DNA from: Rhodanobacter lindaniclasticus
Lineage (GTDB): Bacteria; Pseudomonadota; Gammaproteobacteria; Xanthomonadales; Rhodanobacteraceae
DNA length: 64,000 bases
Assembly: GCF_004799035.1 (NCBI RefSeq)
Contig: NZ_MWIO01000030.1
Location: 62,001-126,000, forward strand
Direction of reading: 5' to 3'
Translations under genes and position numbers: made by a program
Shown here: one piece after another, positions 12,612 through 30,885 of the stretch
How the letters are laid out: every line of letters starts with the position of its first letter
How positions within the stretch are numbered: the stretch's first letter is position 1
The notes under the pieces: generated by a model
Told to the model about the DNA's origin: nothing
Databases searched by the model: none
What the model saw: the letters and a program-made list of their open reading frames with translations, nothing else

Positions 12612-12709
12612 TCCTTGTGCTTTCGTCGAGTGCTGTACCATCTGAAATCAGCAGGGGTTGCCCAAGGCACGCGGCGCGACTCGCACCTACAGCTTCGGAG
12701 GCAGGCCAG

Positions 12710-13453: not shown

Positions 13454-14215
13454 TCAGACGGGTGAAACCGTCTTCGTGTCTACCAGCGCCTGCAAATGGT
13501 CTAGTAGCAGCTTGGGAATCTGCCCGCCGGTGAGAAGCACACCGGCCTCCATGTTCTGCTCCATCGCGTGGCCGGTCAGGTTGGCGCTGGTGATGAAACA
13601 CATCTTGCCATCGGCAACGGCGACTTTGGCGTGAACGCGCCCGTCAGAGAACGGGGCGGCTTTGTCTCGCCAGGAATAAAGCCTCGCAGCGGAGACCAGC
13701 GTGCTCATCTTGCCAATCGCGTCAAACGAGATGCTGCCGCCGTGGTCCTGAGACAATTCGAGCAGCATGGAGATGACCACTCCGCGATCACTTGCCGCAT
13801 TCAGCGCCTTGACGATGGTCGAGACGTTGTAGGCCACGAAGCTGGTGATGAACAGGGTCTGCTCAGCGGCGTTGATGACCTGCAGTAGCGTCTGCTCGGT
13901 TCGTCGAGCCGAGACGAAGGGTGTCGTCGGTCCCGTCCACACGAGTTCGGTGGATTGTTGATTCGTAGCCTTGGTGAAAACATGGCCGGCGGCGAGCAGC
14001 ATCGATGCAAGCTCATCGGCGCTGACCTCACTGGCTCGCCAAGCATCGATGAGCTGATCCACAACCTCAGCAGCAACGGGGGTGCTGACCACGCCCGACA
14101 GCGCACCGGCTGCTTTGCTGGCATCGGTCCGACGAATCCGGCTAGCTATGGCCTGTACCTTCTCAGGAGAGACCAGACAGACCACAGCTGCGACGGCGTC
14201 CAAGAGCCTCTCCAT
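13454..14215 (-). CDS. drmC: DISARM protein DrmC, phospholipase D-like
   Basis: 253 aa. The phospholipase D signature HxKx4D appears as HAKVAVAD, followed by FITSANLT and a conserved MEAGVLL strand. Only one full HKD motif is clear, so a dimer would form the active site as in PLD-type nucleases. The start at 14215 is one base after the drmB stop (TGACATG), giving tight coupling. DrmC is a core gene of both DISARM classes, though reported as dispensable in one system. It is the last gene of the operon. Confidence 0.9.
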   Translation of the reverse strand: MERLLDAVAAVVCLVSPEKVQAIASRIRRTDASKAAGALSGVVSTPVAAEVVDQLIDAWRASEVSADELASMLLAAGHVFTKATNQQSTELVWTGPTTPFVSARRTEQTLLQVINAAEQTLFITSFVAYNVSTIVKALNAASDRGVVISMLLELSQDHGGSISFDAIGKMSTLVSAARLYSWRDKAAPFSDGRVHAKVAVADGKMCFITSANLTGHAMEQNMEAGVLLTGGQIPKLLLDHLQALVDTKTVSPV

Positions 14216-14216
14216 G

Positions 14217-16076
14217 TCACAAGCCCTTGAAGAAAGCCGCGTCGATACGTTCCAGGGTCGGAACCAGCAATGACCGATCCAGGTAGCGATTGCCGCGCTC
14301 GCAGGAGGTCTCGGCCACCAGGCTACAAGCGTGGCACGCCGCAGCATGAAGTGAGCGATCTTTCTCGGGATCGTGCTCGGAGCAAAGCGGGTCAGAGGAG
14401 CAGATCTTCGAGCGATTCAAGGCTTGTTCCAATAGGCGACCCAGATTCTCCGGCTTGCCGAGATCGACGAGACCGCCCAGCGTTCCATCGGAGTCCGCCG
14501 CTGCCGTGTAGATGAGGATACCGGCCTGCGGACTCTCGCCCGAGGTGTCGGCATAGATTCGCTCGCGGATACTCGCTGCGTTGTAGCCGCACTCCAACGC
14601 CAGCTCACGAATCAGCAAGTGCGATAGCGTGTGGAGCAGGGCGTAGCGAATGCCGGGGTAGCCCTCGTCAGGATCGAGATGACGTGAATTGCGCCATCCC
14701 CTGTGGCCGCCCCGGAGCATCTTGTCGACCTGCGCGACGGCAGGTAGTGCTTCCCAAGCGACGAGCGCCGGTTCATCGAACTGGATGAAGATACCCTCAC
14801 CATGTACCTGGTTCGCGGGAACCCAATCCGGTTTGCTTCGTGAGAGGTTGGCCATCTGGGGCCGTTCGTTCGGGTCGCCAGTTTCTTCGGGCGCCTCCAC
14901 CCGAGTAAAACCGAGCAAGGCATTGACCTCTCGCAGTCGCTCCAGAAGCAGCACTCTGCCGATGTGCTTCGCAAAAGCCGGTGGCGTGCCGACCTTCTTG
15001 CTCATGAAGTGCGGGTAGTCCGTGGGCGGATTCGCTTCTGTCAGCACGTCCCATTCGGGGCCCTTGATATCGGCCTCACCCACGACCTCCTGTCCGCCAC
15101 CGCTACGGTGCGCCTCGATAGCCGACCAGATCGACGCCGCAGGATATTTGTCGATCCCTGGCAGCGCTCCGGTCTTTTTAAGCGTCTTCGCCGTCACCAA
15201 CACTTCCGCTTCGGACTCCAGCTCTTCAAAGAACTCCCAGCCATCCTGGATCAGTTGACTGAGTGGGTCCTTGGTCTGGGGAATCGCGAGCGCCGAAAGT
15301 GTGATTGGGAACCAACTGTTCGTGGCGCCCAACAGAACCGCCCGCGCTTCCTCGTCACATTCGTTGTCGAAGTGGTCGAGGTGGGGATGTCGTCCTCGGC
15401 AACCCGGCAGATTCTCTTTTCCGGCCTTGCCGAAGGCGTGGGCCATGCTCCTCGACGCACCACACGTATCGCATTTCGCCCATAGATTCTCCGTCTGCAG
15501 CGAGGCGCCGCTCTCGAAGAAGCGTAGCGTGCCCTTGCATGAACTGTTTCCACCGTGGACGAAGTAGTGCCAAGGGAAGTCGTCGAGGTGACCATCGCGA
15601 CAGGCCAACAGGAAACGTGCCGGTACGGCATCGGCGTCCTTGGCGGGTTGATCGCCCTTCGAACCCCGACATCCTTTGTGGACGAACCGGGTTCGCTCGG
15701 GCCTGAAGCGGTTCTCCTTGATCTCGAACAGTCCGGCATCGAAGGGGGACAGCAGGCCGCATTTCACGCAGCGCATCCAGCGCGGGAATGGCCGGACGGG
15801 AACGCCGATGTTGGCCTCGGCCGACCAGACATCGACGAGCTCGCTTTTCTGGAACGGCGGCATCCGCAAGTTCTCGACCTGTGCTCCAAGCACCTTCCGA
15901 ACGGCGGCCAGCAGTCTGGCTTCCTGGATCGGTTGGCAGCGGTCCTTTTCCCATCGGTCGATGCCAAGCGTCACGACGGACAGGCTCGGCAGATCGATCA
16001 ACGCCCCTGGCCCGTAGGTCCAGAGCAACTGGCTGGGTCTTACTTCTCCGACTGGAGTCTTATTACTCGTCGTCAT
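14217..16076 (-). CDS. drmB: DISARM protein DrmB, DUF1998 domain
   Basis: 619 aa, usual length. The N-terminal region begins with GEVRPSQLLWTYGPGALIDLP, typical of DrmB. Cysteine clusters CVKCG, CDTCG and a late CHACSLVAETSCERGN group predict several zinc sites. The DUF1998 part lies in the C-terminal third (YALLHTLSHLLIRELALECG). DrmB forms a complex with the DrmA helicase and contributes to DNA binding. Start at 16076, two bases after drmA ends. Confidence 0.93.
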   Translation of the reverse strand: MTTSNKTPVGEVRPSQLLWTYGPGALIDLPSLSVVTLGIDRWEKDRCQPIQEARLLAAVRKVLGAQVENLRMPPFQKSELVDVWSAEANIGVPVRPFPRWMRCVKCGLLSPFDAGLFEIKENRFRPERTRFVHKGCRGSKGDQPAKDADAVPARFLLACRDGHLDDFPWHYFVHGGNSSCKGTLRFFESGASLQTENLWAKCDTCGASRSMAHAFGKAGKENLPGCRGRHPHLDHFDNECDEEARAVLLGATNSWFPITLSALAIPQTKDPLSQLIQDGWEFFEELESEAEVLVTAKTLKKTGALPGIDKYPAASIWSAIEAHRSGGGQEVVGEADIKGPEWDVLTEANPPTDYPHFMSKKVGTPPAFAKHIGRVLLLERLREVNALLGFTRVEAPEETGDPNERPQMANLSRSKPDWVPANQVHGEGIFIQFDEPALVAWEALPAVAQVDKMLRGGHRGWRNSRHLDPDEGYPGIRYALLHTLSHLLIRELALECGYNAASIRERIYADTSGESPQAGILIYTAAADSDGTLGGLVDLGKPENLGRLLEQALNRSKICSSDPLCSEHDPEKDRSLHAAACHACSLVAETSCERGNRYLDRSLLVPTLERIDAAFFKGL

Positions 16077-16078
16077 GT

Positions 16079-19000
16079 TCAGTCCTCATCCTTCGTCGCG
16101 GGACGAGGCTTCCAATCGTGGTCGTCCGTGATGTGGCTTGTATTCATGATCAAACGCACGCCGGGCTCCACTTCGCGCATCGACATTGGTACGGTCCAGT
16201 TGTCCCAGGCCTGGATGCCCGGTGACCTGATCAATGCAACTGTCTTGTCCTTCTCGGGGCCGCGCTTCTCATAGGCCAGGATGCGGCCACCTTTGCCTAC
16301 TTCCTTGGCCCACTCATCTGCGCGCTCCTTGAGTTCCTGTTCGGCCAGGCCCTTGGTGCTGGACAGCTCGCTGACATTCCAGGCTCGTCTGACGAGCACA
16401 TCGATGGCATCGGTGATCTCGGTCTGGTCTGACTTGTCCAACTTGCCTGCCCCCTCGTTGGGGCTGAAAACATCGTTCTCCAGACGCATCAGGCTCAGCA
16501 GCGAGCCGGTCAGGCCACGGTCCATCGCGCGCGGCGAGAACGGCGTCACCGACTGCGCTTCGACGTGCTTGTAGAAAGTGGCGTGGTAATGCTCGAAGGT
16601 TTCGTAGTGCGAGAGATCTCGTGGTCGTGCCCAGGTGAGCACTGTGCAGACCAAGCCGGGGAAGGAACGACCCACTCGGCTGGTGGCCTGGATGTACTCC
16701 GCCGTGCCTTTGGGCTGGCCGTTGACCGCCATCAGTCCCAGCCGATTGACGTCGACCCCCACCGACAGCATGTTGGTGGCCAGCACCACATCGATCGCCC
16801 GGGTGTCGCCCTCTTGCCACTTGGTCACGTACTTGCCGGCTGCGGCATCGAACTCGGACTTGAACTTCACCTCGAGGTTGTCGAGGTACTTCGGGATGTC
16901 TTGGCTGGAGACCCGTGAGGTCAGCTCGCGGATGTTGCTGACGCTGCGTTGCGCCAACGCGGGCCGCTCGACCATGCTCATCTGCACCCGGTAGGAACGC
17001 GTCTGCACGTCGTCCTCGGCCAAGCGCTTCATGCCCCCCAGCTCGCGCAGCGAGTTGAAGTAGCCGACCATGGTCATGTACGGATCTGCTGGCTCGCCGA
17101 AGTGATCGAACAGTGCCTGAGCAGCAGTCAGGAACGCCGTGTAGACGCGGATCAGCATCGCAGGTCGTGAACTTCCGGGAGAGCAGACCCCGAGGTAGCG
17201 CCGTCCCGGCTTGTCCTCGATCGGTCGCTGGACCGAGAAATAGTTGTCTTCCACGTCCAGCCCGTGCGGCGGGAACACCGACACACGCCGCATGAAGACG
17301 TTGTTCACCTGCTCGCGGGCCTTACGCACCGTGGCGGTCGACGCGATGATCTTCGGCTTGACCATATGTTCGCCGAGCTTCCAGCCGCACAGCTCGTCCA
17401 CGGCCGTCTCGTACAGGCCAACCATGGTGCCGAGCGGCCCGCTGATCAGATGAAACTCGTCCTGGATGATCAGGTCCGGCGGTCGGATCGGGCTGATGTT
17501 CTTGACCTTGGTGGCAGCGAGCCCCTTTCCGGCCTGGTGGTTACCATGGCAGTCCGCGCCTTGCCATAGCAGGCCGTGCCGCTCGCATTCCTGGCCGACC
17601 CGACCGAACAGCGTGCGCACTTGGCCCCGCCACGCCATCATGGCGAACTTGTCCACGGTGGCGATCATCATCGTCGGGGGACGGTGGTAGATCTCCTCGT
17701 CCACGACCAGTACCGGAATGCCCGCGTGCGGGAGCTTGCTGGACTTGCCTTTCGAGAAGTCGCAACGGCCCTTCTTGTCGCCGCAGTAGACGAAGGTGCG
17801 CCCACGCCCCTTGTCGACCTCCACGTCGCGCCCTGGGGCGACTTCCGAGCCACACCAAGGGCAACTGGTCAGTTGCGCAGGAGACGCCGCGCCGGCGTTG
17901 TACTTACCGGGATTGCGGATGTCCTCGATGGCCCGATGACTGTCCTCGGTCGTGCCAGGGGTCACCTTGTTGCCCACCCACAGTCCGATGGTGAAGGGTT
18001 CGATGCCGAGCGATTCGTCACCCTTGGCCAGCGCCTCGCGACGCAGCACCTCCATCGCACAGATCAGTGCCGTGGCACGCTGAAACTGCTGCAGCGTCAG
18101 CAGGCGCAGGGTGTAACGCATGATCACGGCCAGACCGCGCGAGCCGTCGTAGCCGCCCAGGTTGCCCTGCATGCGCCGAATGGCCATGGTGAAGGCGGCT
18201 ACACCTAGGTACGCCTCCGTCTTGCCACCGCCGGTAGGGAACCACAGCAGATCGGCATAGGCTTCGACCGGTTGCACACGATCCGGGTGCGTCGGGTCGG
18301 CCAGCGATGGGATCGACAGCAGCAGGAAAGCCAACTGGAACGGGCGCCAGCTGCGGTTCTTCAGTACGTCGAACTGCTCGACGGTGACGTCCTTGCCACG
18401 CCGGATTTCGAGGGCGTATTGGCTACGCACGCGCTGCGTGGCCATTGCCCGGTTGGCGAAACGGAAGGCCGCCAGGGCATTCGCGTCGCTCTTCAGCGTA
18501 TCGATACCCTGCTGCAGGCGAGTGTGGATCTCCTGGCATCGATCCATTGCCTGTTGCGACTGCGCGTCGTAGCCAAGCACGTCGATGCCGACCCGAGCAC
18601 GCTGCTCATCGATCCACGCGGCGTAATCCTTGGTCAACAGGTTGAGGGCGTCGACCAGCGGATCGATGTCCAGTGTGGCGAGGCGCTGCATGTCGAGCAG
18701 GCCACTGCTCACCATTTCCTTCATCGCCGGCCGGTCGGCGGGGTCCAGCCCCGGTGTCTCGGTGACCTGCACCTCGTACTGCGGCATGACAGTGATGCGC
18801 ACCTCGGTGGCCAGCGTCACGTCATCCGCCGCTTCGGCATGGACGGCGACGCCGTGCCCCACCGCGAACTCCACCCGGTTGCGGTAGATCATCTCCAGCG
18901 ATTCACGCTCCGGGTCCATACCGTCCGCATCCAGCACAGGCCGGCGGCGGAAGATTGCGCGCTTGGGTGCTTCAGCTTCCGAACGCACGATCAGCTCCGG

Positions 19001-20098
19001 CTGGAAGACCCAGGCGGTATCGCGGTTGGTCTCGGGTTCTTCCTGTGCGTTGACCAGGAACAGCGTCACCAAGCGATCGCCATTCGCGTTCTTGGCGCGC
19101 ACGGAGCCCTGCACCCGCACTTCGGGATAGGTCTTGTCCGGCGCCTGATGAGGGATCACGCCTTCGGTGAGCGGCAGCACCAGCTTGCCGCCACAAGGGA
19201 TGCGTTGCCAGACCTTGGCCTTGGTCTGCTCCTCGGCGCCGGTCTCCTTGTTCTTGCGGATGCGGAAGATCTCGTGCTCATCGCTGCGCTCGTAGCGACC
19301 CCAGCGCACCTCGATTTCGATCCGTTCGGCGTCACCATCCACACAGAAGGTCATGCCCAGGCTGCTCGGTACCAACGATTGATTGCTGGCAGCGTCGATC
19401 TCATCGGCGGCGTCAGACTCGGGCTCGACACGCCCCGTCGCCGTGCCGAACTCCGCACCGGGTTCATGCTGGCCGGGCGCCTTCGGGTCGGTGGGCTCTT
19501 CGACCTCGTCGTTCGCCAGTGGCCCTTCGAGCCCTTCGATGCCACCCTGTGCCGCCTCACGCGGGGCGAGCTTGCCCACCAGATAGCGATCCCGCACACC
19601 CATGTCGACGATGCGCTCATGAGGGCCGCCAGCCGGGCCGAGCAAGTCGTCCATCACGGCCAGTTGCAGCAGTTCGCGGATGTAGGCGAGTTCCTGCTGA
19701 TGCTGGGGAGATCTGGGATCGGAACCGACCGTCGGCACTTCGGCGATGGTCTTGTGCAATGCCTTGGGCAGGGCTTCGACGAAATCGGTCCACTGGACCC
19801 GACCGATGCTGCTCGAAGACGGTGGCGTGAGTGCAGTGAGGCCGATCGAGACGGGGTCTGTGATCGACAGCAGTCGGTCGAAATAGAGCGTGGTGGTTTC
19901 GAGATCGGAACGAACCCGCAGCACACGCCCGACACGGGTGATGCTACCAACGGGGTTCAGGACCAGAACCCAGTCGTCCTCCTCGATGGCCTGATAGAGA
20001 GAACGCTCACCCTTCAGAACCAAGATATAGGGCGCGAGCCTGTGGTCGGTGCCGAGGCCATGATCGATGGCGATCCATGCGTTGGAAGTTTTCGTCAT
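16079..20098 (-). CDS. drmA: DISARM protein DrmA, superfamily 2 helicase
   Basis: 1339 aa. Helicase motif I (FPTGGGKTEAYLG) is near residues 618-630, the DEFH box (variant DExH) at 880-883, and motif VI (IQATSRVGRSFPG) near 1137-1148. A zinc cluster (CPWCG ... CGDKKGRCDF) is inserted in the first lobe. The long N-terminal ~600 residues are specific to DrmA and contain an acidic linker near 190-240. DrmA is a core DISARM subunit, paired with DrmB. It starts 12 bases after the GHKL gene ends. Confidence 0.95.
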   Translation of the reverse strand: MTKTSNAWIAIDHGLGTDHRLAPYILVLKGERSLYQAIEEDDWVLVLNPVGSITRVGRVLRVRSDLETTTLYFDRLLSITDPVSIGLTALTPPSSSSIGRVQWTDFVEALPKALHKTIAEVPTVGSDPRSPQHQQELAYIRELLQLAVMDDLLGPAGGPHERIVDMGVRDRYLVGKLAPREAAQGGIEGLEGPLANDEVEEPTDPKAPGQHEPGAEFGTATGRVEPESDAADEIDAASNQSLVPSSLGMTFCVDGDAERIEIEVRWGRYERSDEHEIFRIRKNKETGAEEQTKAKVWQRIPCGGKLVLPLTEGVIPHQAPDKTYPEVRVQGSVRAKNANGDRLVTLFLVNAQEEPETNRDTAWVFQPELIVRSEAEAPKRAIFRRRPVLDADGMDPERESLEMIYRNRVEFAVGHGVAVHAEAADDVTLATEVRITVMPQYEVQVTETPGLDPADRPAMKEMVSSGLLDMQRLATLDIDPLVDALNLLTKDYAAWIDEQRARVGIDVLGYDAQSQQAMDRCQEIHTRLQQGIDTLKSDANALAAFRFANRAMATQRVRSQYALEIRRGKDVTVEQFDVLKNRSWRPFQLAFLLLSIPSLADPTHPDRVQPVEAYADLLWFPTGGGKTEAYLGVAAFTMAIRRMQGNLGGYDGSRGLAVIMRYTLRLLTLQQFQRATALICAMEVLRREALAKGDESLGIEPFTIGLWVGNKVTPGTTEDSHRAIEDIRNPGKYNAGAASPAQLTSCPWCGSEVAPGRDVEVDKGRGRTFVYCGDKKGRCDFSKGKSSKLPHAGIPVLVVDEEIYHRPPTMMIATVDKFAMMAWRGQVRTLFGRVGQECERHGLLWQGADCHGNHQAGKGLAATKVKNISPIRPPDLIIQDEFHLISGPLGTMVGLYETAVDELCGWKLGEHMVKPKIIASTATVRKAREQVNNVFMRRVSVFPPHGLDVEDNYFSVQRPIEDKPGRRYLGVCSPGSSRPAMLIRVYTAFLTAAQALFDHFGEPADPYMTMVGYFNSLRELGGMKRLAEDDVQTRSYRVQMSMVERPALAQRSVSNIRELTSRVSSQDIPKYLDNLEVKFKSEFDAAAGKYVTKWQEGDTRAIDVVLATNMLSVGVDVNRLGLMAVNGQPKGTAEYIQATSRVGRSFPGLVCTVLTWARPRDLSHYETFEHYHATFYKHVEAQSVTPFSPRAMDRGLTGSLLSLMRLENDVFSPNEGAGKLDKSDQTEITDAIDVLVRRAWNVSELSSTKGLAEQELKERADEWAKEVGKGGRILAYEKRGPEKDKTVALIRSPGIQAWDNWTVPMSMREVEPGVRLIMNTSHITDDHDWKPRPATKDED

Positions 20099-20110: not shown

Positions 20111-22066
20111 TCAAATCCTGTCCACGATCTTTTCGAGCTTGTCGAGTGACTTGCTCTTCTCGATGTATGCCGAATACGCCTCTTGAGCGCCCCGAATCAA
20201 GGTGTCGTAATGGACGATGCGGCTGCCCGGTGAGATCGATGTCATCGATGACTTGAGGCGGTCGGGGTTCGATGCCTCTTCGTTGACGGTCTTGCCAAGG
20301 ACGAAGATCACCTCGATATTGGGGCTGACATCGTTTTGCTCGCGCAGGATCTTTTTCAGCTTGTCGACGTAGGTCTGACCTTGCTCCACCAGTTCGAGCA
20401 ATCCCATCTTGCGGCCGACCTTCTTGAGCTCGACGATGACGTGCTTGCCCGCATTGGTGCGATAGGCGATGTCGACGCGGCCCAGGCGCTCTTTCTCGGT
20501 CATGTCTTCGATCAGCACGCCTTCCGTCGTCAGGCGCGATTCCATGATCGGGCTGCCCGTGGCACGCTCCCATGCCGGGTCCAATAACCAGAGGTGATCG
20601 AACAGGTACTTCTGGAGCACCCGTTCCTTTGCGTCCTCATCGATGATGGTCTGGAAATCCCGGATGGCATCCAGACGCGATTTGACGATGTCCCGGTAGA
20701 GGGATGCCTCAAGCGAGTCTCTGTCGGCGAGCACGGCCAGCAGCCTGTCGGCACTCTCGATGCTCGTCACAAACTCCTCGGTCGAGCCGCGCAGCTTCAT
20801 GCGCTCGAATGCCAGGATGCCGTGCCGGTACATGAGCTTCCGATCCTCTTCCTCATCGACCGGCAGCGCACTGAGTTTGGCGATCAGCGTCTCCGCGCTC
20901 TTTTTGTATCCCTCGGGGAGCGTATCGAGCCACTCGGCGAGGGCGGGCGATGTTTCCTTCGCTTTCTCGACCTCGTGCTTCTTGCGCCATTCCGTCCAGC
21001 GCTTCTCGACTTGCGTAAGACGTGATTTCAGGAAAGCGATCAGCTGCCCATATCGGGGGTCATCCTCCTGCACGCGCTGCCGATCGCTGGTCGCGATGTC
21101 TGGTGCGTCGTCGGCGTCTAGGAAATCGGCCTCGATCTGCCCGGTGAGGTACTTCGTGTAGAGCCGCCCGTCGTTCAGTTTGTCGAGGATGTTCTCGTGA
21201 AACAGGCGGCCACGGGCGAACACGACGATGCCATTCAGATTGCCGGCATCCTCACTATCCAGTTGTTTGGGGAACCTAGCCGTGCCGATCCAGCCACTGA
21301 CCTTCCACCCTGTATCCCAAGCATCGAAGCGGTTCGGAAGCGATTCCTTCTCCAGGAGCTGACCGGCGGGACTCAGGTCGAGTGCGTCGTCACCGAACTG
21401 CCAGAGGAACTGCACCATCGGCAGGTCGCCACGATCGGAGGGTGTGATGGGCTGCCCATCGAGATCGATCTTGAACCCGTGGGCCTCCCCGATCACAGAG
21501 AAGCGGCGCGCCAGGCGCTTGCGAAGAGCCAGCGCACCACGACCGAGCCGCTGGCGCTTGATATCGCGCAGAACGATTCGTGTTCCCTTGGTTACCGCGA
21601 TCTGATCGGCGGGCAGGGACTCGGGGCTGTAGAAGGGCTCCCTCTTCTGAACCGATTCGTGGATTCCGTCCACGGTCATGCGGAGGCCATGAGCTGAGCC
21701 ATCTCTGGCTGACTCGACTTCGATGACGTTAGCAATCGAGAACAGCGAGAGTTTTCCCAGCCCTTTGCGGCCCATCACCGGTCGGCCCTTGGCAGTCGTC
21801 TTGCCATGCTCGAGATCTTCATCTCGCCGTCGATAACCGACCCGCAGGTACTTGCCGTTCATGTCATCGACCGACATACCGATACCGTCATCGAGGATCT
21901 CGATCCGGTTGCCGTCCGAATCGATCTTGATGTCGACGGTCTCGGCGTCGGCATCCCAGGCGTTCGCGACGGCCTCGGTCAGAACGGCGGCGATGTTGCT
22001 GTAGAGGTTGATCCCGAGGTGGTCGAGCACGTTCAGGTCGACCGTCATTCTGTATTTGTCGCTCAT
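20111..22066 (-). CDS. GHKL ATPase fused to a Shedu/DUF4263-like PD-(D/E)XK domain
   Basis: 651 aa. The N-terminal ~250 residues form a GHKL (Hsp90/MutL-type) ATP site: E31AVANAWDAD40 (N box), DDGIGM at 59-64 (G1) and GRKGLGKLS at 99-107 (G2). The middle is helical, with a charged EKRWTEWRKKHEVEKAK stretch. Near residue 500 comes HLWLLDPAWE, then GRVD532IAY and VE546LK548, the D...ExK layout of PD-(D/E)XK nucleases in the arrangement of Shedu SduA (xPWLL, then D, then ELK, then a Q-x-x-Y helix). It overlaps drmMI by 4 bases and lies 12 bases before drmA, so it is made with DISARM. The nuclease assignment is inference; the GHKL motifs are clear. Confidence 0.8.
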   Translation of the reverse strand: MSDKYRMTVDLNVLDHLGINLYSNIAAVLTEAVANAWDADAETVDIKIDSDGNRIEILDDGIGMSVDDMNGKYLRVGYRRRDEDLEHGKTTAKGRPVMGRKGLGKLSLFSIANVIEVESARDGSAHGLRMTVDGIHESVQKREPFYSPESLPADQIAVTKGTRIVLRDIKRQRLGRGALALRKRLARRFSVIGEAHGFKIDLDGQPITPSDRGDLPMVQFLWQFGDDALDLSPAGQLLEKESLPNRFDAWDTGWKVSGWIGTARFPKQLDSEDAGNLNGIVVFARGRLFHENILDKLNDGRLYTKYLTGQIEADFLDADDAPDIATSDRQRVQEDDPRYGQLIAFLKSRLTQVEKRWTEWRKKHEVEKAKETSPALAEWLDTLPEGYKKSAETLIAKLSALPVDEEEDRKLMYRHGILAFERMKLRGSTEEFVTSIESADRLLAVLADRDSLEASLYRDIVKSRLDAIRDFQTIIDEDAKERVLQKYLFDHLWLLDPAWERATGSPIMESRLTTEGVLIEDMTEKERLGRVDIAYRTNAGKHVIVELKKVGRKMGLLELVEQGQTYVDKLKKILREQNDVSPNIEVIFVLGKTVNEEASNPDRLKSSMTSISPGSRIVHYDTLIRGAQEAYSAYIEKSKSLDKLEKIVDRI

Positions 22067-25000
22067 AGCTCTCCCTCACCGAACAGCCCGTCGAGGGTGG
22101 CGGGAGAGGCCGCCTTCGGTCTGCGTCCGCGTTTGGACTTTGTTGTTGTGGACGCGCCGCTGCTGCTACTCGCAGCTGCTTCGAAGCGTTCACGATTGAG
22201 TGCGGTCAGCCGTCCAAGGAGGTCAGCGGTAAGGTCGCTCGACAAAGACCAACGCCAAGGATCATTGGCGGAGCCTCCATCGATCTCACGGAAGTCGTAG
22301 ACGATCTCAAGGTCATCCCACCCATAGGCCGCTGTCACCTCGTTATCGATTACGACCAGTAACTGCCGCAGCTCGACGATCGTTGCATCCTCCTCGCCAG
22401 GGGTATGGATGGCGTTCATGACGTCGGTCAACCCGCATTCGTGCGCAGCGCCGAATGCAACCGCCAAGTCGTTGAAACGCTTTGCCGCATCGATGCCCGC
22501 CCGGGAGACTTCACTGCTCGGAACTGGGTACTTGGCGACCGACTCGCTGATGGAAAGCGATAGCGTCTCGCCCAGATTCCCACCGCTGAATCGTTCGAGC
22601 CACGCACGAAAGCCTGTGCTTAGCGAGATGGCATAGAGGTCATCCCGCTCCATTCCGATCAGAAGTACCTTGTTCGTGTAGATCCAATCGGACGGAGCGA
22701 GCATGCCAACCGGGTACTTTGTGTTCTTTGAGTAGCCGATGAAATTTCCGCGCTGCCGTATGCGCCGCATCAGGTCGGCGCGGTGGTTCCAGAATTGCCA
22801 CCAACGATCGATCAAACCTTTGTAACTCTTGAGAGCGGCGACCGTGCGAGTCGGTTGCACTTCTTCGACGATGAAGCGATGGGCGATCGGCCATCGTCTG
22901 GCGATCTCGTCCAAACTGCGATCACCGATATCCAGCGCCCATCGACCGATGCGATTGAGCGCCGAGCTCGTGATGTCGTCACCTGTGATGTAAGGACGGA
23001 GCAGGCTGTCCGGTTCATTCTGGAGTCGCTCAAACCAGGGGCTGTCCGGCGTGATGACGAATGCCAGACCTTTGCTGTTGTTTACACCTTCGAAAGCAAA
23101 GAGTGCATCCGGCAGGGTTTGTGGGGCCCAGACATCCGAGGCTTCTGGCTCCAGCCTCGGTCCGATGCGAGCACACTTCCGGCCATCGGCATCGCATTCG
23201 GCCGGCCATTCGCCCTTGATGAAACCAACGATGGCAACCACCACGGCTGCCGTGCCGGGCCAAGGCATGCCTTTCTTGGCGAAATAGATCATGCCGTTCT
23301 GAACCACTACACCGAGGCCGACATCGATGGCACTACCCTCGGCGATGTTGCTGGTCGCGAGCAGCCCATAACAGCCATCGGTTCGCAGCAGGTCGACGGC
23401 ACGACGATGGAAGACCACGCACAAGTCGATCTTGCCCGGAGATGCACCCAAGACCATCTGGCACTGCCATTGCAGCTTGTCACCCATTGCGCTTTTCCAG
23501 AGGCGGTTGCCCAGGAACGGCGGGTTGCCGACGAGAGCATCGAATCCGGAGAGCGATCTCGCAAAGACCTCTGGAAATTCCAGTGGCCAATGGAACGGCA
23601 AACGTCTTGTCTTTTCAGGAGGGAGATCGGCGCTCAATGCGTTGTGCGCTCGCCGAATCATGGTTTCTATCGCGTCGCGCTTACCATCGACGGCCTGCCC
23701 GGCGTGAATCGCGAGCGTGCCGACGGTACTGGACAGGACGTTGGCATTCCCTCCCGAAGAAAGCACTTCGGCGATGAACGCATCGGCGATGCGCTCCGGC
23801 ACGTCGAGCTTCTGGCGTGCATCGGCATCCAGTCGCGCCATAGCCTCGACGTCACGGATGTCCCGGATGGGCATCTGGCGCAGCGCTTGCCGCAATTCGA
23901 TCGCCTCGCGCACGGCTTGTTCGATGTTCTGCCCGAACAGGCGTTGCTGACCTTTCCCGGTCGGCGTCATGGTGAGTTCGGTGAGCTGATCCAGCCGATG
24001 AATACCGAGCAGGCTGTCGCCACAACGTAGGTTGTGGTCCAGAAAGCCGAACGGCCTCCCCTTGGCCAGCGTCACCAGCCAGATGGAGAGCTTGGCGAGT
24101 TCGACCGCCAGCGGATTTAGGTCCACGCCGTAGAGGCAGCGCTCGGCGATGAGGCGGCGGGCGATCACGGTGCGTGCCTCGGTGTCGCGGGGCAGAGGCT
24201 CCTTGGTGTGCGGCACATCCAGGACTTCGCCATCCACGCTCACCGGATTTCCACTGCCTTCAGCCAGTGACCAGGCCTCGACCAGGCGATCGGCCAGCCA
24301 GCGGCAGGCCTGCACCAGGAAGGCGCCTGAGCCCATGGCAGGGTCGCAGATCTTCAGGTCCAGCAGTTCGGCGGGTGACTTCAACACCCACTGCTCACGC
24401 GGGGTACCTTCGGATGGCCCTACGTACGCTATCGGCGTCAACGTCTCGGTGACGATGGTCTCGGTCAGCGATTTTGGGGTGTAGTGGGTGCCAGTCTCGC
24501 GACGGTCAGAGCCGGTGGTGACGATGAAGGCCCCGGCGGGGTAGACCAGCGGATAACCCCATGGATCGGTGCGTACCAGGTAGGCAAAAGGCTTGATGCG
24601 ATTACGGAGGTTGGTGTCCCCATGGCAGGCGGCCAGCAGACGGTCGGCGAGCGTATCGTCGACAGGCTTTACCAGATCGTTGCGCACGCGGCTGGCAGAA
24701 CTGCCGGAGCGCTCCTGGAGCAGTTCGGCAAGGCGTTCGGCACCGTCGAGGCGGGCGGATTCCAACTCGGCCAACTTGACCCAGGGGGCTTTGGCATTCT
24801 TGGTCCCATCCAGTTCCAGCGTGACCTCGGCGGTGCGCTTGACGGTGCGTTCCAGCAGGCCCTCGTAGACGTAACCGATCTGTTCGACGTCCAGCGCACG
24901 GTAGGACAATGTCCTGCCCTGAAACTGCTGGATGGCTTCGAGCAACAGCAGCACGGTGCGGTTGTCGATCGGCAGCGGCTTGGCCGGGTCGGTGCGCCAG

Positions 25001-26139
25001 TCGGAGCCCTTGGCGCGGCCCTCGAGGAAGGGAAAACGATCCGGGTCGAACAGCGAGCCGCCCAGCGCTGGAAGGCGCAGGTTCTCGTGTTCGATGCCAC
25101 CAAATACGGCACGGAAGATCGCCAGCAGGCGCGACCAGGCATCCCAGCGGCGTTCGAGGATCTCCTCGGATTCCTTGCGCAACTGCATGCGCAGGGTCGA
25201 GAGCGCATAGTTGGCCTCGTAGCGCTCGTCTCCGAGCAACAGCAAGCCGCGTTCCTCGGCGGAAAGCAGGAACACCAGCCGCATCATCACCGTCAGCGCG
25301 GCTTCGTAGAGCACCGGCTCTTTCACGTCGCGCAGCAACTCGCGGTCGCGGTCCTGGTCGGCTTTGTCGAGGGCCTGGATCAGCACTTCGACGGCGCGCC
25401 GCACCTGCTCACCGAGGGCGTCGGTGACTTCGTCCTGATATTTCAGCGAGCGGTCGAACAGTGCCGGCAGTTGCTCGGTTTCATCGACGAAGAAGCGACG
25501 AATACCCAGCAGGTGCACGAAGGCTTGCAGGGTGATGGGTTCCTGACTCCAGATGCGGGCGTACCAGCTGGCAAAGGTGGTGACGGCACCAACTGGGGCG
25601 TCGACCAGCATCCAGCGCTCGCCATTGGTCACCAGCCCGAGGCGGCAGCCGGTGGCGCGGCACAACTGAACCATGCGATCGGCCGGGGTGGCGGCCCATC
25701 CGTCCAGCTTCAGAGTGGCATCGAGATCGACATCCTGTCCGTAAGTGTGGATGAGCATCTGCGGCTTGTCGGCCCGTTGCTCGTCGATGACGGCGAGGTC
25801 CGGGGACAGCGTCACGCCGTGTTCTGGCAGGCTCACATTCAGTTCGGCCGCGCACCAGTCGGCGCGCTTCAGAACGTCGCCTTTGCCATCCTCGTCGAGT
25901 TCCAGCCCGCGCGCCAACACCTCATCAATCCACGCAGCGTGCAATTCGGCAAACTGCGGATCGTCCGTCTCCAGCGCCTCGCGCCATTCCTCGTAGGCCT
26001 GACGCAGCCGTTTGCGCTTGGTTCCGTCGAGTTCTTCCAGACCTTGGGGAAAGGCTTCCTTGAGAACGGGAACGGCGAGGAACGGGCCGGAGATCTCGAT
26101 GAGCGCCAGCCAGTCGTGGTGCAGGTCGTGATTGCTCAT
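22063..26139 (-). CDS. drmMI: DISARM methyltransferase DrmMI, N6-adenine type
   Basis: 1358 aa. SAM motif I DPAMGSGAFL is near residues 598-607, and the catalytic NPPF is at 872-875, placing it with class 1 DISARM adenine methylases and PglX/type IIG-like enzymes. The large N-terminal region (~550 residues) shows an AbiRM/type I-like helical architecture. The C-terminus has target-recognition-type sequence and ends in a basic Lys/Arg-rich tail. It would methylate host DNA to mark self. It overlaps drmD by 4 bases (ATGA) and the GHKL gene by 4 bases. Confidence 0.92.
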   Translation of the reverse strand: MSNHDLHHDWLALIEISGPFLAVPVLKEAFPQGLEELDGTKRKRLRQAYEEWREALETDDPQFAELHAAWIDEVLARGLELDEDGKGDVLKRADWCAAELNVSLPEHGVTLSPDLAVIDEQRADKPQMLIHTYGQDVDLDATLKLDGWAATPADRMVQLCRATGCRLGLVTNGERWMLVDAPVGAVTTFASWYARIWSQEPITLQAFVHLLGIRRFFVDETEQLPALFDRSLKYQDEVTDALGEQVRRAVEVLIQALDKADQDRDRELLRDVKEPVLYEAALTVMMRLVFLLSAEERGLLLLGDERYEANYALSTLRMQLRKESEEILERRWDAWSRLLAIFRAVFGGIEHENLRLPALGGSLFDPDRFPFLEGRAKGSDWRTDPAKPLPIDNRTVLLLLEAIQQFQGRTLSYRALDVEQIGYVYEGLLERTVKRTAEVTLELDGTKNAKAPWVKLAELESARLDGAERLAELLQERSGSSASRVRNDLVKPVDDTLADRLLAACHGDTNLRNRIKPFAYLVRTDPWGYPLVYPAGAFIVTTGSDRRETGTHYTPKSLTETIVTETLTPIAYVGPSEGTPREQWVLKSPAELLDLKICDPAMGSGAFLVQACRWLADRLVEAWSLAEGSGNPVSVDGEVLDVPHTKEPLPRDTEARTVIARRLIAERCLYGVDLNPLAVELAKLSIWLVTLAKGRPFGFLDHNLRCGDSLLGIHRLDQLTELTMTPTGKGQQRLFGQNIEQAVREAIELRQALRQMPIRDIRDVEAMARLDADARQKLDVPERIADAFIAEVLSSGGNANVLSSTVGTLAIHAGQAVDGKRDAIETMIRRAHNALSADLPPEKTRRLPFHWPLEFPEVFARSLSGFDALVGNPPFLGNRLWKSAMGDKLQWQCQMVLGASPGKIDLCVVFHRRAVDLLRTDGCYGLLATSNIAEGSAIDVGLGVVVQNGMIYFAKKGMPWPGTAAVVVAIVGFIKGEWPAECDADGRKCARIGPRLEPEASDVWAPQTLPDALFAFEGVNNSKGLAFVITPDSPWFERLQNEPDSLLRPYITGDDITSSALNRIGRWALDIGDRSLDEIARRWPIAHRFIVEEVQPTRTVAALKSYKGLIDRWWQFWNHRADLMRRIRQRGNFIGYSKNTKYPVGMLAPSDWIYTNKVLLIGMERDDLYAISLSTGFRAWLERFSGGNLGETLSLSISESVAKYPVPSSEVSRAGIDAAKRFNDLAVAFGAAHECGLTDVMNAIHTPGEEDATIVELRQLLVVIDNEVTAAYGWDDLEIVYDFREIDGGSANDPWRWSLSSDLTADLLGRLTALNRERFEAAASSSSGASTTTKSKRGRRPKAASPATLDGLFGEGEL

Positions 26140-29100
26140 GCTGCATCCCCTTGCATGGCTGACTCGGGAACCAAGAAGACGACGGCAACAGGGAAAGTGC
26201 GATCGTCGAGCTTGGAATAGCGGGTTTCGATGGCCTGGACCTCTTGGATGCGCTCGGCCGGGATGCGCGCGAGGCGTGCCTCCAGCGCGGCGGTATCGCG
26301 TCTGAGCTGAGTGCGCTCGTCCTCGGTGAACAGCGAAAGCTGCTCGGGCTGTTGGTCTTTCTTCAACTCGCTCTGGATAGCCTTCTCCAACTCGTCGAGC
26401 ACGGTACCGATGTCATCCATCTCTTGTTGCTTGCGGGTCTGCAGAGTATTGGCCAGAAACTTGAGTCGATCCTTCGAGCGGGCGTCGACCGCTTGCAGGA
26501 TGGCGGGCTGGGCGCGATCGAAGCGCACCCGAATGGCATCGAGTAGCGAATCGCTCGCAGTGACTGGCTGCGCCTCGTCCAGCCACTGCTGGACACGCGT
26601 GACACCCTCTTCGCGCCGGAACGACTGATCGCGCAGATAGCCGCCCGAGACGGTCAGTTCCTCGTGAAGGCGATGGTGGTTGCCACCGGTGATGACCAGC
26701 CGCGAGATGACGACCACAGCCGGGCCCTCGATGCTGCCATCCGGTAATGTGCGCACGGTGACGCGATGGAGTTTCTTCACGTCATCCTGCGCCCAGACCT
26801 CGGCGCGCAACAGCCTCAGGCACATCTGCACCAGTCGATGATTCAGGTGGACCAACACGACATCGTCTCGCCCCTTGGCCACAGCGTGGTCAAAGGTGAT
26901 GGGGCGTATCTGCTGGGTATGCGGGTGACGCAGGCCCTCCAGACAGCGCGCCCATGATCCCGATAGGGGTGGCATCCTGAATGCGCTGCCTTGGGGTGCA
27001 TCTGCGAGGGCGACGGGTTCCAACGGGGGGCGGCCCGCTAGCGCGAGACCAGTCTTCACCGCCATCTGGATGTGATCGGGCGTGAGGTGAAAATCCTGCT
27101 GGGTGGCGAGGAGTCGTTCATGGAGCTTGGCGACGCGCTCTTTCAGCTCGCGTTCGGCGCGCACGAAGCGCCTGGCCTTGGCAATCTTGGCCTCCGCGAG
27201 GCGGGTGTCCAGATCCTTCAGCGAGCCTTCGATGAGCCCGGACATCTGGGGCGCGATGACCGGATTGACGCTGCCCATGTCGGCGCGCATCGACTCCAGT
27301 TTGCGCAGCGCACGCAGAATGTCGTCACCATGGCCACCGACCGATGCATGGCTTTTGTCACCGCCGTCGACGGGGTGCCAGATCAGCACCTCTTTCTCGC
27401 GTTGTCCGTGACGGTCGATACGCCCGTTGCGCTGCTCCATCACGTTGGGGTTGTAGGGGATCTCCAGGTGGATGAGGCAATTGCAGTGGTTCTGCAGGTC
27501 GATACCTTCGGAGGCCGCATCCGTGGCGAGCAGGATGCGGACGGGGGAATCCTTGGGAGATGCCTGGAAGGCTGCCTTGATGGGCTCCCGCTCATCCTGA
27601 GTGAGTCCTCCGTGGAGCAGACCGAGTCGTTCGCCACCGAAACCATGGCTGGCGAGGATCTCGTGCATCCACTGGTGGGTGGTGCGGTATTCGGTGAACA
27701 GGATCACCCGGCGGTCATTCCACTGACCTCCCGGTTTCAGATTGGCTGAGAGCCAATCTAGGATGGCTCTGGCCTTGGAGTCGGTCTGGTTCTTGGCGCG
27801 CTGTGCCCATTGCCTCAAGTCGGCCAGAATCCGTTGTTGCTCTTGCGTAAGCGGTTGGGAACGGCGTGATGCCTCCTCGACGGCCTCCGATTGAGCATTC
27901 TCGACTTCCTGGTCGTTGGCGTAATCCTCGTCTGCTTTCAGGATGGCTTTGCGCAGGATGCGCTCGGCCATGGCATCTCGACCCTTGGGCTTGGCGCCAT
28001 TCGACAGCGAGGCGACGTGCTTCTCGAGCGTGGAAGCGAACGCGGCGGGCGACGAGAAGAGGCGCTTCTTGAGCAGTTGATTGACGAACGAAGTGCCGAA
28101 TGTGCTGCCGGTCTTCTCCGCGTCTTTTTCGCGGCTGGCACAGTAATCGTTCAGCTTCTGGTGGATCTCCCGTTCCTCGTCCGTGTGTGGGACCGCCAGC
28201 GCCTGGAGCTTTCGCTGGGCATACAGGGGCTTGCCGTCAGCATCGACGAGATCGCTCTTCAGGCGACGAATCATCACCTGGCTCAGCTGCTTCTCGTCGG
28301 GGAGGATGTTCCGGGCGAAGCGTTGATCGTCCAGCAACTCCAGCAGTGAGGTGAACGACTCGGTGTAGCCGTTGTGCGGCGTTGCGGTCAGGAACAGGCG
28401 ATGCTGGAAATGCGGGCTGATCGCGCGGATGAAGCGGGTCCGCTGACTCTCGAGGGCGTAATGCGCGCCGGCGGCGGGGGCGATGTTGTGCGCTTCGTCG
28501 ACGACCAGTAGATCGAACTTGCGCGGATGGCCGGCATGGGGCGGCAGGACATCGCGCATGGCGCGCAGCCCCTCGCCACTCTTGACCCAGTCCATCGAGG
28601 CGATGAGGCGCGGATGAGATGTCCACGGATTGGCGTGGATGCCGCGTTCGCGCCGCAATTGCTTGATGTAGGCAGTGTCGACCACGCGGAAGTCGAGGCC
28701 GAACTTCTCCAGCATCTCGATGCGCCATTTCTCCTGAAGGGATGCAGGACAGATGATCAAGACGGTGCGGGCACGGTGCCGGAGCAGCATCTCCTGGATC
28801 ACCAGCCCCGCCTCGATGGTCTTGCCCAAGCCGACGTCGTCGGCGATGAGCAGGTTGACGCGCGCCATGTCGATGGCGCGCACCAAAGGATCGAGCTGAA
28901 AGTCCTCGATGCTGACGCCACTGCGGAACGGTGCCTGCAGAAACCCTCGGTCTGCATTGGTGGCGGCGCCCCATCGCACCGCATCCAGGAAGGCTTCGAG
29001 CGTGTCGGAGTGGTCTTGCCCGGTAATGGAAGGCAGGCCCGCACGCTCGATGACTTGTGCGCCGGGTTCGATCTCCCAGATGACTTCCAGTTCTTCGCCG

Positions 29101-29288
29101 AGGCCGTCCTCGTCGATGGAAGAAAGCGTCACGCAGTTCTGCGACGCCGAAGCCGATTCCAATTTCGAGGAGGCGACATCCGCCACGACCCACTGGCGCC
29201 GGCGAACCTCGACCAGCTGGCCGGGCTCCGGACGGGTACGGTAGGTGTGGTGCTTCTGATCGTTCGAGATTTCCATGCAGTCTGCCAT
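26136..29288 (-). CDS. drmD: DISARM protein DrmD, SNF2-family helicase
   Basis: 1050 aa. Motif I DDVGLGKTIEAG lies near residues 150-161, DEAH at 263-266, and the motif V-VI block (TDAASEGIDL ... NGRIDRHGQ) near 585-628. The C-terminal third is coiled-coil rich (EMDDIGTVLDELEKAI). DrmD defines class 1 DISARM. The frame continues upstream to 29828, but that part is a shadow of the vsr gene; the start chosen at 29288 is 8 bases after the vsr stop. An alternative ATG lies at 29276. Confidence 0.92.
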   Translation of the reverse strand: MADCMEISNDQKHHTYRTRPEPGQLVEVRRRQWVVADVASSKLESASASQNCVTLSSIDEDGLGEELEVIWEIEPGAQVIERAGLPSITGQDHSDTLEAFLDAVRWGAATNADRGFLQAPFRSGVSIEDFQLDPLVRAIDMARVNLLIADDVGLGKTIEAGLVIQEMLLRHRARTVLIICPASLQEKWRIEMLEKFGLDFRVVDTAYIKQLRRERGIHANPWTSHPRLIASMDWVKSGEGLRAMRDVLPPHAGHPRKFDLLVVDEAHNIAPAAGAHYALESQRTRFIRAISPHFQHRLFLTATPHNGYTESFTSLLELLDDQRFARNILPDEKQLSQVMIRRLKSDLVDADGKPLYAQRKLQALAVPHTDEEREIHQKLNDYCASREKDAEKTGSTFGTSFVNQLLKKRLFSSPAAFASTLEKHVASLSNGAKPKGRDAMAERILRKAILKADEDYANDQEVENAQSEAVEEASRRSQPLTQEQQRILADLRQWAQRAKNQTDSKARAILDWLSANLKPGGQWNDRRVILFTEYRTTHQWMHEILASHGFGGERLGLLHGGLTQDEREPIKAAFQASPKDSPVRILLATDAASEGIDLQNHCNCLIHLEIPYNPNVMEQRNGRIDRHGQREKEVLIWHPVDGGDKSHASVGGHGDDILRALRKLESMRADMGSVNPVIAPQMSGLIEGSLKDLDTRLAEAKIAKARRFVRAERELKERVAKLHERLLATQQDFHLTPDHIQMAVKTGLALAGRPPLEPVALADAPQGSAFRMPPLSGSWARCLEGLRHPHTQQIRPITFDHAVAKGRDDVVLVHLNHRLVQMCLRLLRAEVWAQDDVKKLHRVTVRTLPDGSIEGPAVVVISRLVITGGNHHRLHEELTVSGGYLRDQSFRREEGVTRVQQWLDEAQPVTASDSLLDAIRVRFDRAQPAILQAVDARSKDRLKFLANTLQTRKQQEMDDIGTVLDELEKAIQSELKKDQQPEQLSLFTEDERTQLRRDTAALEARLARIPAERIQEVQAIETRYSKLDDRTFPVAVVFLVPESAMQGDAA

Positions 29289-29296
29289 CTTCCTGT

Positions 29297-29755
29297 TCAG
29301 TTCTTCTTGTGCGCGCCAGCAGGCGATGTGCAGTGCTTCGCTCTCGCCATGGCGACCGCCTGTGCGACGGTTTCCGTGGCTTCGATCGGGGACTCGTGTT
29401 CCCAGAATCGCAGTACCGTCCAACCGACTTCGAGAAGCCTCGAATTCGTGTCGGCGTCCCTGAGGCGATTCGTCTCGATCTTCTGCCGCCAGAACTCGGC
29501 GTTCTGCTTCGGCCAGGTGGCATGCTCGGGGCACCCGTGCCAGAAGCACCCGTCGACGAAGACGGCGATCCTCAAACCCGGAAATGCCACGTCTGCGACG
29601 CGGCGAGGTTTCTTCAGGACCTCGTAGTCGATCCGGTAACGCAGGCCCCTTCGGTAAAGCTCTCTTCGCAATGCGATCTCGGCATCGGTTCCCTTCTGCC
29701 GAACCTTCGCCATGCGGCGACTGGTCTCGGGGGACGAGGGCTGAATGCGCGACAT
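29297..29755 (-). CDS. vsr: Very short patch repair (Vsr-like) endonuclease
   Basis: 152 aa, the usual size. The Vsr core is clear: an N-terminal RRMAKVRQKGTDAE, then DVAFPGLRIAVFVDGCFWHG with the catalytic Asp and the HGCPEH zinc/active-site segment, then WTVLRFWEHE. Vsr nicks next to T:G mismatches left by deamination of 5-methylcytosine, and normally accompanies Dcm-type methylases, as here. It starts 20 bases after the methyltransferase stop and ends 8 bases before drmD, so it is inside the operon. Confidence 0.92.
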   Translation of the reverse strand: MSRIQPSSPETSRRMAKVRQKGTDAEIALRRELYRRGLRYRIDYEVLKKPRRVADVAFPGLRIAVFVDGCFWHGCPEHATWPKQNAEFWRQKIETNRLRDADTNSRLLEVGWTVLRFWEHESPIEATETVAQAVAMARAKHCTSPAGAHKKN

Positions 29756-29775: not shown

Positions 29776-30819
29776 TCATCGGGCCGTGACCGATGCGATA
29801 TGCGTGTTGATGCTGCGCGCGATGGCACGACCGAGATCGACGGGAACCGCGTTGCCGATGAGCCGCCCGAGAACCTTGAAGCTCACTTCGCCGTCATCCG
29901 GCACGAACGCGTAGTCGCGTGGAAAGCTCTGGAGGATCGCTGCCTCCCTCAACGAGATGGCTCGGTCCTGTTCTGGGTGCCCGAAACGGCCATTGCCAAA
30001 GCCGTAGCATTGCGTGGTCATGGTCGGGGCGGGTTTGTCCCACTCCATGCGGCCGTAGACGCCCGGGTAGGTGCGTCCGCTCTCGGCGCGGTGACAGTCG
30101 GCGACCAGATCATCCGGCCAATCGCGCCAGGTGCCACCGGGTTTCGATACCTTGATCCGTTTGAGATTCTTTTCCGATAGCGTCGAAGTGACGTGCAATT
30201 TGTCCCTCGGAGCCGCTTCACCAGCACTCAATGGGCGCAAGCGGCCAATGGCTTGACGAACCGTCTTCGGTTTTTCGTGGGTCGGTTCGATCATCGTGAT
30301 GTCACCATGTTTTGATGCCAGCAGCACCATGCGTCGCCGCATCTGCGGCACGCCATAGCGGGAGCTGTCCACGACATCAAACCAAACGTTGTAGCCGAGC
30401 CGTTTCAGCGTATCGACAAAGTCATGAAACACTTCGTGCTTCGCGACGGTAGGGACGTTTTCCATCGTGATGACATCGGGCTTGGCGCCTTTGGCGAGAC
30501 GCGCGAACTCATACAGCAAGCCCCACTTGCCATCCTTTCCGTCGAGTTCGTAGCGCTGTGCGTAGGTCGAGAAAGGTTGGCACGGTGCGCAGCCCGCGAG
30601 AATCGTCAAGTCGGCGTCGCCGAACAGCGCTTTCAGTTCAGACGCGGTGACCTTGCTGATGTCACGTTCGACGAATCGGGCCTGGTTGTTGGCTTCATAG
30701 GGAAAGCGGCAGGCCGGGTCCAGATCGATACCGGCAACCACGGGCAGCCCCTCCAGCACGAAGCCGTGCGTCAGCCCGCCCGCTCCGCAGAACAAATCCA
30801 CACAAGAAATCGTTGTCAC
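29776..30819 (-). CDS. DNA (cytosine-5) methyltransferase at the head of the DISARM operon
   Basis: 347 aa from a GTG start at 30819, preceded by GGAG seven bases upstream; the longer frame to 30876 lacks such a site. The C5 motifs are in order: DLFCGAGGLTHGF (I), GCAPCQPFS with the catalytic Cys (IV), ENVP (VI), QMRRRMVLLAS (VIII) and GNAVP (X). The target-recognition region is short, fitting a small recognition site. C5 methylases (drmMII) belong to class 2 DISARM, but class 1 genes follow here. It may therefore be a second self-marking enzyme or a solitary Dcm-Vsr pair captured upstream. Confidence 0.9.
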   Translation of the reverse strand: MTTISCVDLFCGAGGLTHGFVLEGLPVVAGIDLDPACRFPYEANNQARFVERDISKVTASELKALFGDADLTILAGCAPCQPFSTYAQRYELDGKDGKWGLLYEFARLAKGAKPDVITMENVPTVAKHEVFHDFVDTLKRLGYNVWFDVVDSSRYGVPQMRRRMVLLASKHGDITMIEPTHEKPKTVRQAIGRLRPLSAGEAAPRDKLHVTSTLSEKNLKRIKVSKPGGTWRDWPDDLVADCHRAESGRTYPGVYGRMEWDKPAPTMTTQCYGFGNGRFGHPEQDRAISLREAAILQSFPRDYAFVPDDGEVSFKVLGRLIGNAVPVDLGRAIARSINTHIASVTAR

Positions 30820-30885
30820 ATCAAATCTCCTGCTTCCACTTCGATACTTGAACGAAGTAGGCGAAACCCATGGCAAACCAGTACC

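Follow-up and report, generated by a model that had tools for sequence, protein, structure and literature searches.

A BbrUII/HgiDII-family restriction enzyme gene and its likely partner methylase gene within a class 1 DISARM operon of Rhodanobacter lindaniclasticus

Restriction–modification systems of the BbrUII/HgiDII type are directed at GTCGAC, and both M.BbrUII and M.HgiDII are given as m5C methylases of this sequence in the consulted parts of two reports (PMC5005818, PMC5867850). A GHKL ATPase joined to a nuclease was also described in the paraMORC3 proteins, which were predicted to belong to restriction–modification systems (Iyer et al. 2008) and which combine a GHKL and S5 module with a C-terminal nuclease of the restriction endonuclease fold bearing an E-D-ExK motif; the accessible part of this account does not mention DISARM (PMC2292703). 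Another fusion of this kind is VcSduA of V. cholerae, a type I-D GHKL–Shedu protein published in 2025, in which, according to the available part of the report, an ATPase mutant and a nuclease mutant each lost defense (PMC12137116). As to DISARM itself, the PADLOC definition of the type I system, as excerpted, requires five genes only (PMC9252829). DrmC is dispensable, and the way in which DISARM degrades DNA "has remained a mystery", in the words of the portion of text consulted (PMC9142583). The restriction family, the GHKL–nuclease fusion and DISARM are already known. In the literature searched there was no work tying the BbrUII/HgiDII family to DISARM, while a mention in the original DISARM paper is possible. 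What is apparently new is a branch of the restriction family that resides in DISARM operons with a methylase gene at the operon front.

The DNA analyzed here is a 64,000-nt stretch from Rhodanobacter lindaniclasticus (contig NZ_MWIO01000030.1, positions 62,001 to 126,000, forward strand), called the window below. On its minus strand, eight genes follow each other along transcription in the order M, Vsr, drmD, drmMI, R, drmA, drmB, drmC. The first of them, M (29776..30876, start codon uncertain), encodes a cytosine-5 DNA methyltransferase (PF00145, 5.5e-57), likely the partner of R, which also matched the PADLOC profiles DrmMII (PDLC02651, 298.8 bits) and MTase_II (PDLC03378, 291.3 bits). Between M and drmD lies V (29297..29755), the gene of a 152-aa Vsr mismatch endonuclease (TIGR00632, 109 bits versus a cut-off of 97.85; PF03852, 2.8e-15). 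The SNF2-like helicase gene drmD (26136..29276) has an inferred first base, as the listed open reading frame opens at 29828 and is matched by NF038317 from its residue 200 (1430.8 bits versus 610). It is followed by drmMI (22063..26139), encoding an MmeI/PglX-like adenine methylase with Eco57I and MmeI domains (PADLOC DrmMI PDLC02643, 1772.8 bits), and by R (20111..22066), an intact open reading frame with an ATG start. The operon ends with the helicase gene drmA (16079..20098; NF038325, 1496.8 bits versus 950), drmB (14217..16076; NF038324, 769.5 bits versus 240) and the PLD nuclease gene drmC (13454..14215; NF038319, 253.4 bits versus 133), the start of which was placed at residue 45 of the listed frame, where the PADLOC DrmC match begins.

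All five core genes of class 1 DISARM (drmA, drmB, drmC, drmD and drmMI) are therefore present in one operon by NCBIfam and PADLOC profiles, which bears out the proposal of a first-pass annotation of this DNA that the gene sits in a DISARM operon, overlapping drmMI by 4 bases and stopping 12 bases short of drmA. No DrmE was present among the PADLOC matches listed for eight scanned window proteins (the best 25 for four of them). The five core genes are what the operon has in common with described class 1 systems, and M, Vsr and R are what it adds. Since M and Vsr head the same operon as R, a complete type II set of methylase, Vsr and restriction enzyme is interleaved with DISARM. In this the locus shares with the BbrUII/HgiDII systems a full-length family match of the restriction enzyme and an m5C methylase, and it differs from them in that M and R stand apart inside a DISARM operon, with Vsr, drmD and drmMI between them. 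The operon is flanked by conjugation genes (TraD at 9525-11681; TIGR03746, TIGR03749 and TIGR03752 genes at 32785-35823) and is carried by an integrating conjugative element. A sigma-70 consensus scan of the minus strand between 13400 and 31500 gave no site, a result of little weight. Just 3' of drmC, on the plus strand, lies a gene (12617-13402) that resembles HNH proteins weakly (PF01844, E 0.082) and was not counted as part of the operon.

The 651-aa R protein was matched by NF050001, the NCBIfam model of the BbrUII/HgiDII family, over residues 5-651 with 865.5 bits versus a cut-off of 550, and by PADLOC REase_II (PDLC03419) with 373.7 bits. The same NCBIfam model matched all 20 members of the R alignment, and by these profiles R is a BbrUII/HgiDII-family type II restriction enzyme over its whole length. 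The N-terminal part matched Pfam HATPase_c_3 (PF13589, 7.1e-17, residues 25-141), and in the alignment of 20 sequences of at least 37% identity E31, N35, D59, G61, G63, G99, R100, K101, G102, G104 and K105 are invariant. These data agree with the GHKL motifs first noticed at residues 31-107. We take E31, N35, D59/G61/G63 and G99/G102/G104 to be residues of the GHKL N, G1 and G2 boxes. In the comparison of a full-length model of R (mean pLDDT 72.3) with solved structures, Hsp90 and TRAP1 chains came first among the best 50 matches listed, with TM-scores of about 0.3 by query length, and MORC2, MORC4 and SMCHD1 chains were also among them. The best 60 matches listed for the full R profile against solved structures were Hsp90-, MutL- and kinase-type ATPases. 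The invariance of the GHKL residues suggests that ATP binding matters for R, by analogy with VcSduA.

The C-terminal part had been described at first as a Shedu-like nuclease domain with the elements HLWLLDPAW, D532, E546-L-K548 and Q-x-x-Y. In 20 full-length sequences H491, L492, W493, L494, D496, P497, W499, E509, R530, D532, E546, L547, K548, Q562 and Y566 are invariant, and the last of the described elements is in truth Q562-x-x-x-Y566. Of these residues, W493, D496, W499, E509, R530, D532, E546, K548, Q562 and Y566 are also invariant in 44 C-terminal rows, and in this alignment the constancy of the E-D-ExK set over 44 sequences exceeds chance. The SduA_C (DUF4263) profile was matched by 25 of the 44 family members (best 5.4e-5), and the NucS_C profile by nine. 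The window protein itself scored 14.4 bits with SduA_C, under the Pfam cut-off of 27, and 17.7 bits (E 4.7e-4) with PADLOC SduA. Membership of R in the Shedu (SduA) family was consequently rejected at the Pfam cut-off, and only an affinity at the superfamily level was retained.

The predicted fold was compared as well. For a separate model of the C-terminal part (mean pLDDT 67.7) a second aligner placed the B. cereus Shedu protein on top (8ti8, Z 8.0, 161 aligned residues, rmsd 4.3), followed by Shedu 8ti9 (Z 7.8) and NucS/EndoMS (5gke, Z 7.7; 2vld, Z 7.6), the Shedu and NucS/EndoMS scores being tied within 1. E. coli SduA reached Z 7.3 and 7.2, the nucleases FokI, BspD6I and Bse634I ranked below it, and RNA polymerase subunit E chains appeared from Z 6.1 down. 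Foldseek returned zero matches for this model at 0.001, and the C-terminal profile found nothing useful up to E 5 among the sequences of solved structures. As values of this aligner below Z 8 can be background, the claim of a PD-(D/E)XK fold leans on the agreement with the independent SduA_C and NucS_C profile hits. The affinity of the predicted nuclease to Shedu and NucS is consistent but weak: a PD-(D/E)XK-type domain was retained from the early description, and SduA_C membership was given up. The suggestion that the gene offers DISARM a candidate nuclease besides DrmC is supported, and so is that of a real class 1 DISARM operon.

To place the family outside DISARM, R loci on viral contigs were sampled with an alignment, which gave 40 loci. 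In 34 of them an M homologue was located 460 bases or less from R, and a Vsr gene was found in between wherever the gap exceeded 240 bases; in two of these M–R loci (L138 and L139) R is merely 25-27% identical. One further locus (L107) is a DISARM locus with an R 96% identical, and the five remaining ones (L142-L146) have only a partial match to the ATPase domain, with M not adjacent. On plasmids, R lies within about 140 bases of M in 13 of 28 records with M, and these 13 close pairs include eight of the 12 plasmid records with a near-full-length R. A scan of 369 genomes with NF050001 gave matches in 346, nearly all of them weak and to the ATPase part. The cut-off was passed in three genomes, one being that of the window, and both others have M–R pairs with no DISARM within the 16 kb read. 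Within M, the identity of the target-recognition region is at most 11 points off that of the rest of the protein (window versus 65 rows, at least two repeats), so that the M of the window resembles those of the stand-alone pairs to a similar degree in this region and outside it.

These pairings make it most likely, as we infer, that M protects the host at the site cut by R. The recognition site of R is predicted to be GTCGAC by analogy with the characterized family members, a prediction rather than a result, as this site is given only by the reports on M.BbrUII and M.HgiDII. A predicted GTCGAC m5C methylase can pair with a different restriction enzyme, as in Chania, where, according to the consulted part of the report, the partner gene has just about 735 bases (PMC5005818). 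Counts of GTCGAC were also considered. The genome has 3051 sites versus 2842 in the reversed control; the window has 32 versus a Markov expectation of 51.9 (mildly low, rank 32 of 64 palindromes), and 20 related DISARM loci pooled have 246 versus 337.9 expected (rank 22 of 64). As the counts gave no clear signal, avoidance of this site as a sign of restriction was dropped.

Close relatives of R, 63-100% identical, were found in 25 genome loci using exact peptide words of the window protein, which biases this sample to close kin. In 21 of the 25 loci R is inside a DISARM operon. The remaining four are a locus with a decayed DISARM (L020) and three M–R pairs away from DISARM (L021, L023 and L024). 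DrmA had no match in the genomes of L020, L021 and L023, with the genome of L026 as a positive control, and the genome of L024 has a distant DrmA (39-45%) on contig C12, away from R. The loci inside DISARM belong to five named phyla (Pseudomonadota, Thermodesulfobacteriota, Chlorobiota, Myxococcota and Planctomycetota) and to one unplaced deltaproteobacterial assembly; the set includes several MAGs. Most of the 21 DISARM loci (17) have R in the drmMI–drmA interval, at times along with extra genes. In three others (L012, L015 and L019) R follows drmC, and in L010 it precedes drmD. Twenty of the 21 have a relative of M upstream of drmD with nothing or Vsr alone between; in L012 and L013 the M–drmD piece is on a contig separate from that of R, and for L002 the stretch covers just the 3' part of M. 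Vsr was found between M and drmD in 11 of the 21 loci and at the 3' end in six, and was not found in four. In L010 (10001-11956) R, 81% identical, lies upstream of a distant drmD; its genome gave no relative of M at 1e-60, and the sole cytosine methylase found there, on contig C5, shares 26% identity with M.

In related DISARM operons the drmMI–drmA interval is a hotspot of accessory genes (L003:7850-9991; L004:11967-16736; L022:11963-13177; L097:22205-24622; L018:8128-9996), the contents of which comprise a KAP NTPase, a second SNF2 helicase with a 547-aa protein, an AspBHI/Mrr-type restriction gene, a GHKL and Methyltransf_35 pair, and a DUF7380/DUF4209 protein. A Deinococcus plasmid (L096, NZ_CP044987.1) has a class 1 DISARM with a separate Vsr–M–R cassette just 3' of drmC. 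The R of this cassette is distant (about 41%), which marks a second, separate meeting of an M–R system and DISARM.

A tree of R was built from 55 rows by a quick search, with SH-aLRT support only and with long-branch warnings. It included 21 of the 35 viral loci L107-L141; 12 were omitted as near-duplicates, partial or distant, and L133 and L137 because of a broken frame. The DISARM-resident R sequences, together with the three pairs and L020, formed one 27-row set (SH-aLRT 98) nested in M–R pairs, and the tree required three changes between DISARM and pair labels versus 17.9 in shuffles, with none of 500 shuffles as low. This nesting, together with the three label changes, fits one main recruitment of a stand-alone M–R system into DISARM, with some exits. 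Wide occurrence away from DISARM, which the first-pass annotation had named as counting against its proposal, is found for the family (34 of 40 viral loci beside M) but not for the branch of the window protein, which is mostly in DISARM operons (21 of 25), and for this reason the link of R with DISARM is regarded as genuine.

The similarity of M, R and DrmD was compared among 20 genomes (L096 omitted; DrmD of L015 partial, 648 aa). The identity of M followed that of DrmD (Spearman 0.89; partial 0.81 given R), and R correlated with M at 0.64 and with DrmD at 0.66, with partial values of 0.16 and 0.25. Because M tracks DrmD, and tracks R weakly after correction for DrmD, M may be of use to DISARM no less than to R. 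The R of L012 is 80% identical to that of the window and 77% to that of L019, while its DrmD is 62% identical to that of the window and 85% to that of L019, a mismatch which suggests that R has probably passed from one DISARM locus to another. The searches via DrmD also gave three DISARM loci (L086, L097 and L104) that have kept M and V and have no R; no match to R was present in the L086 and L104 genomes, searched in full with a query that matches the genome of the window, nor in the L097 plasmid. Since M stays beside drmD even without R, M in this lineage behaves like part of DISARM, and R like an optional addition. Conversely, at L020 (9184-10000) a single open frame joins the start of drmD to the end of drmMI, and M, V and R are intact, so that by its sequence this locus is a DISARM deletion derivative. 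As its genome has no drmA match, the M–V–R set can persist without DISARM. Surveys with DrmD found DISARM in four of 398 genomes (that of the window included), in two of 385 (one already known) and on 26 plasmids, of which H36 and H37 were read and the other 24 compared by accession with the R records, with none in common; with so few loci, the share of DISARM loci that have R is poorly known.

Taken together, R is probably a site-specific restriction enzyme of the BbrUII/HgiDII type that was recruited into class 1 DISARM, with a methylase that is likely shared. A stand-alone M–R system would have been taken into the operon, where M, upstream of drmD, would have turned into part of this DISARM lineage, and R would have settled in an accessory position, most often the drmMI–drmA interval. 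Opening the operon, M most likely shields the host at the predicted GTCGAC, and Vsr, between M and drmD, would mend the T:G mismatches that arise by deamination. Most likely R would cut DNA at a specific site, with the 5mC set by M blocking it, and its targets would be incoming DNA without this mark; the DISARM helicases would act on the same DNA. The ATPase of DrmAB is lowered by 5mC-containing DNA, as stated in the consulted part of the report (PMC9142583), hence one mark could serve both DISARM and R.

A serious alternative, which we put a little short of an even chance, is that R and M are an ordinary, independent type II system that occupies a slot for defense genes in DISARM with no interplay between the two. 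This would be consistent with the other genes carried by that slot in relatives (KAP NTPase, second SNF2 helicase, GHKL and Methyltransf_35 pair, AspBHI/Mrr gene), with the retention of M–V–R in L020 after DISARM loss, and with the lack of R in L086, L097 and L104. However, M and R are separated by drmD and drmMI and have been retained by DISARM loci in five phyla, R occupies three different positions in these loci, and M stays beside drmD even without R, all of which argue against this alternative. A more far-reaching version of recruitment, which we consider rather unlikely, is that DISARM absorbed R as an optional effector that reads the 5mC of DISARM itself, with a GHKL dimer that may clamp DNA engaged by DrmAB, and that R moves between lineages with a matching methylase; if true, one methylase would serve two readers, DrmAB and the GHKL nuclease.

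We regard it as improbable that R is an ATP-gated Shedu-type DISARM effector like VcSduA, with cleavage triggered by DISARM sensing and not by an unmethylated site, even though SduA_C affinity is found in 25 of 44 members, Shedu heads the fold matches, VcSduA has the same domain order and needs its ATPase and a nuclease residue by the available part of its description (PMC12137116), the R branch is tightly linked to DISARM operons and L010 has R without a close M, because R matches the restriction family over its full length, other family members stand beside a cytosine methylase, 20 of the 21 R-bearing DISARM loci also have M, the window protein is under the SduA_C gathering score, L020 has an intact M–V–R in a genome without a drmA match, and three M–R pairs outside DISARM fall within the R branch. 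R and VcSduA both begin with a GHKL domain and end in a PD-(D/E)XK part that has affinity to DUF4263, and R is set apart from the VcSduA description, as far as the consulted text goes (PMC12137116), by its SduA_C score below the cut-off, its restriction family and the methylase in its operon. Seventeen loci from the NF050001 genome scan (L030-L046) gave a frame in 11 cases; none of the ten frames scanned matched SduA_C at 0.01, and so no VcSduA-like comparator was obtained.

Recruitment of a restriction enzyme with a likely shared methylase would have several consequences for DISARM. As the likely partner methylase of R is located at the operon front, two defenses that are usually separate are merged in one operon, and two systems of self/non-self discrimination would be joined in this way across five phyla. 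A definition of class 1 DISARM by five genes, such as that of PADLOC in its excerpted form, would miss the restriction–modification system inside such loci. A conserved restriction enzyme resident in DISARM, possibly sharing its methylase, would be a concrete candidate nuclease in one DISARM lineage.
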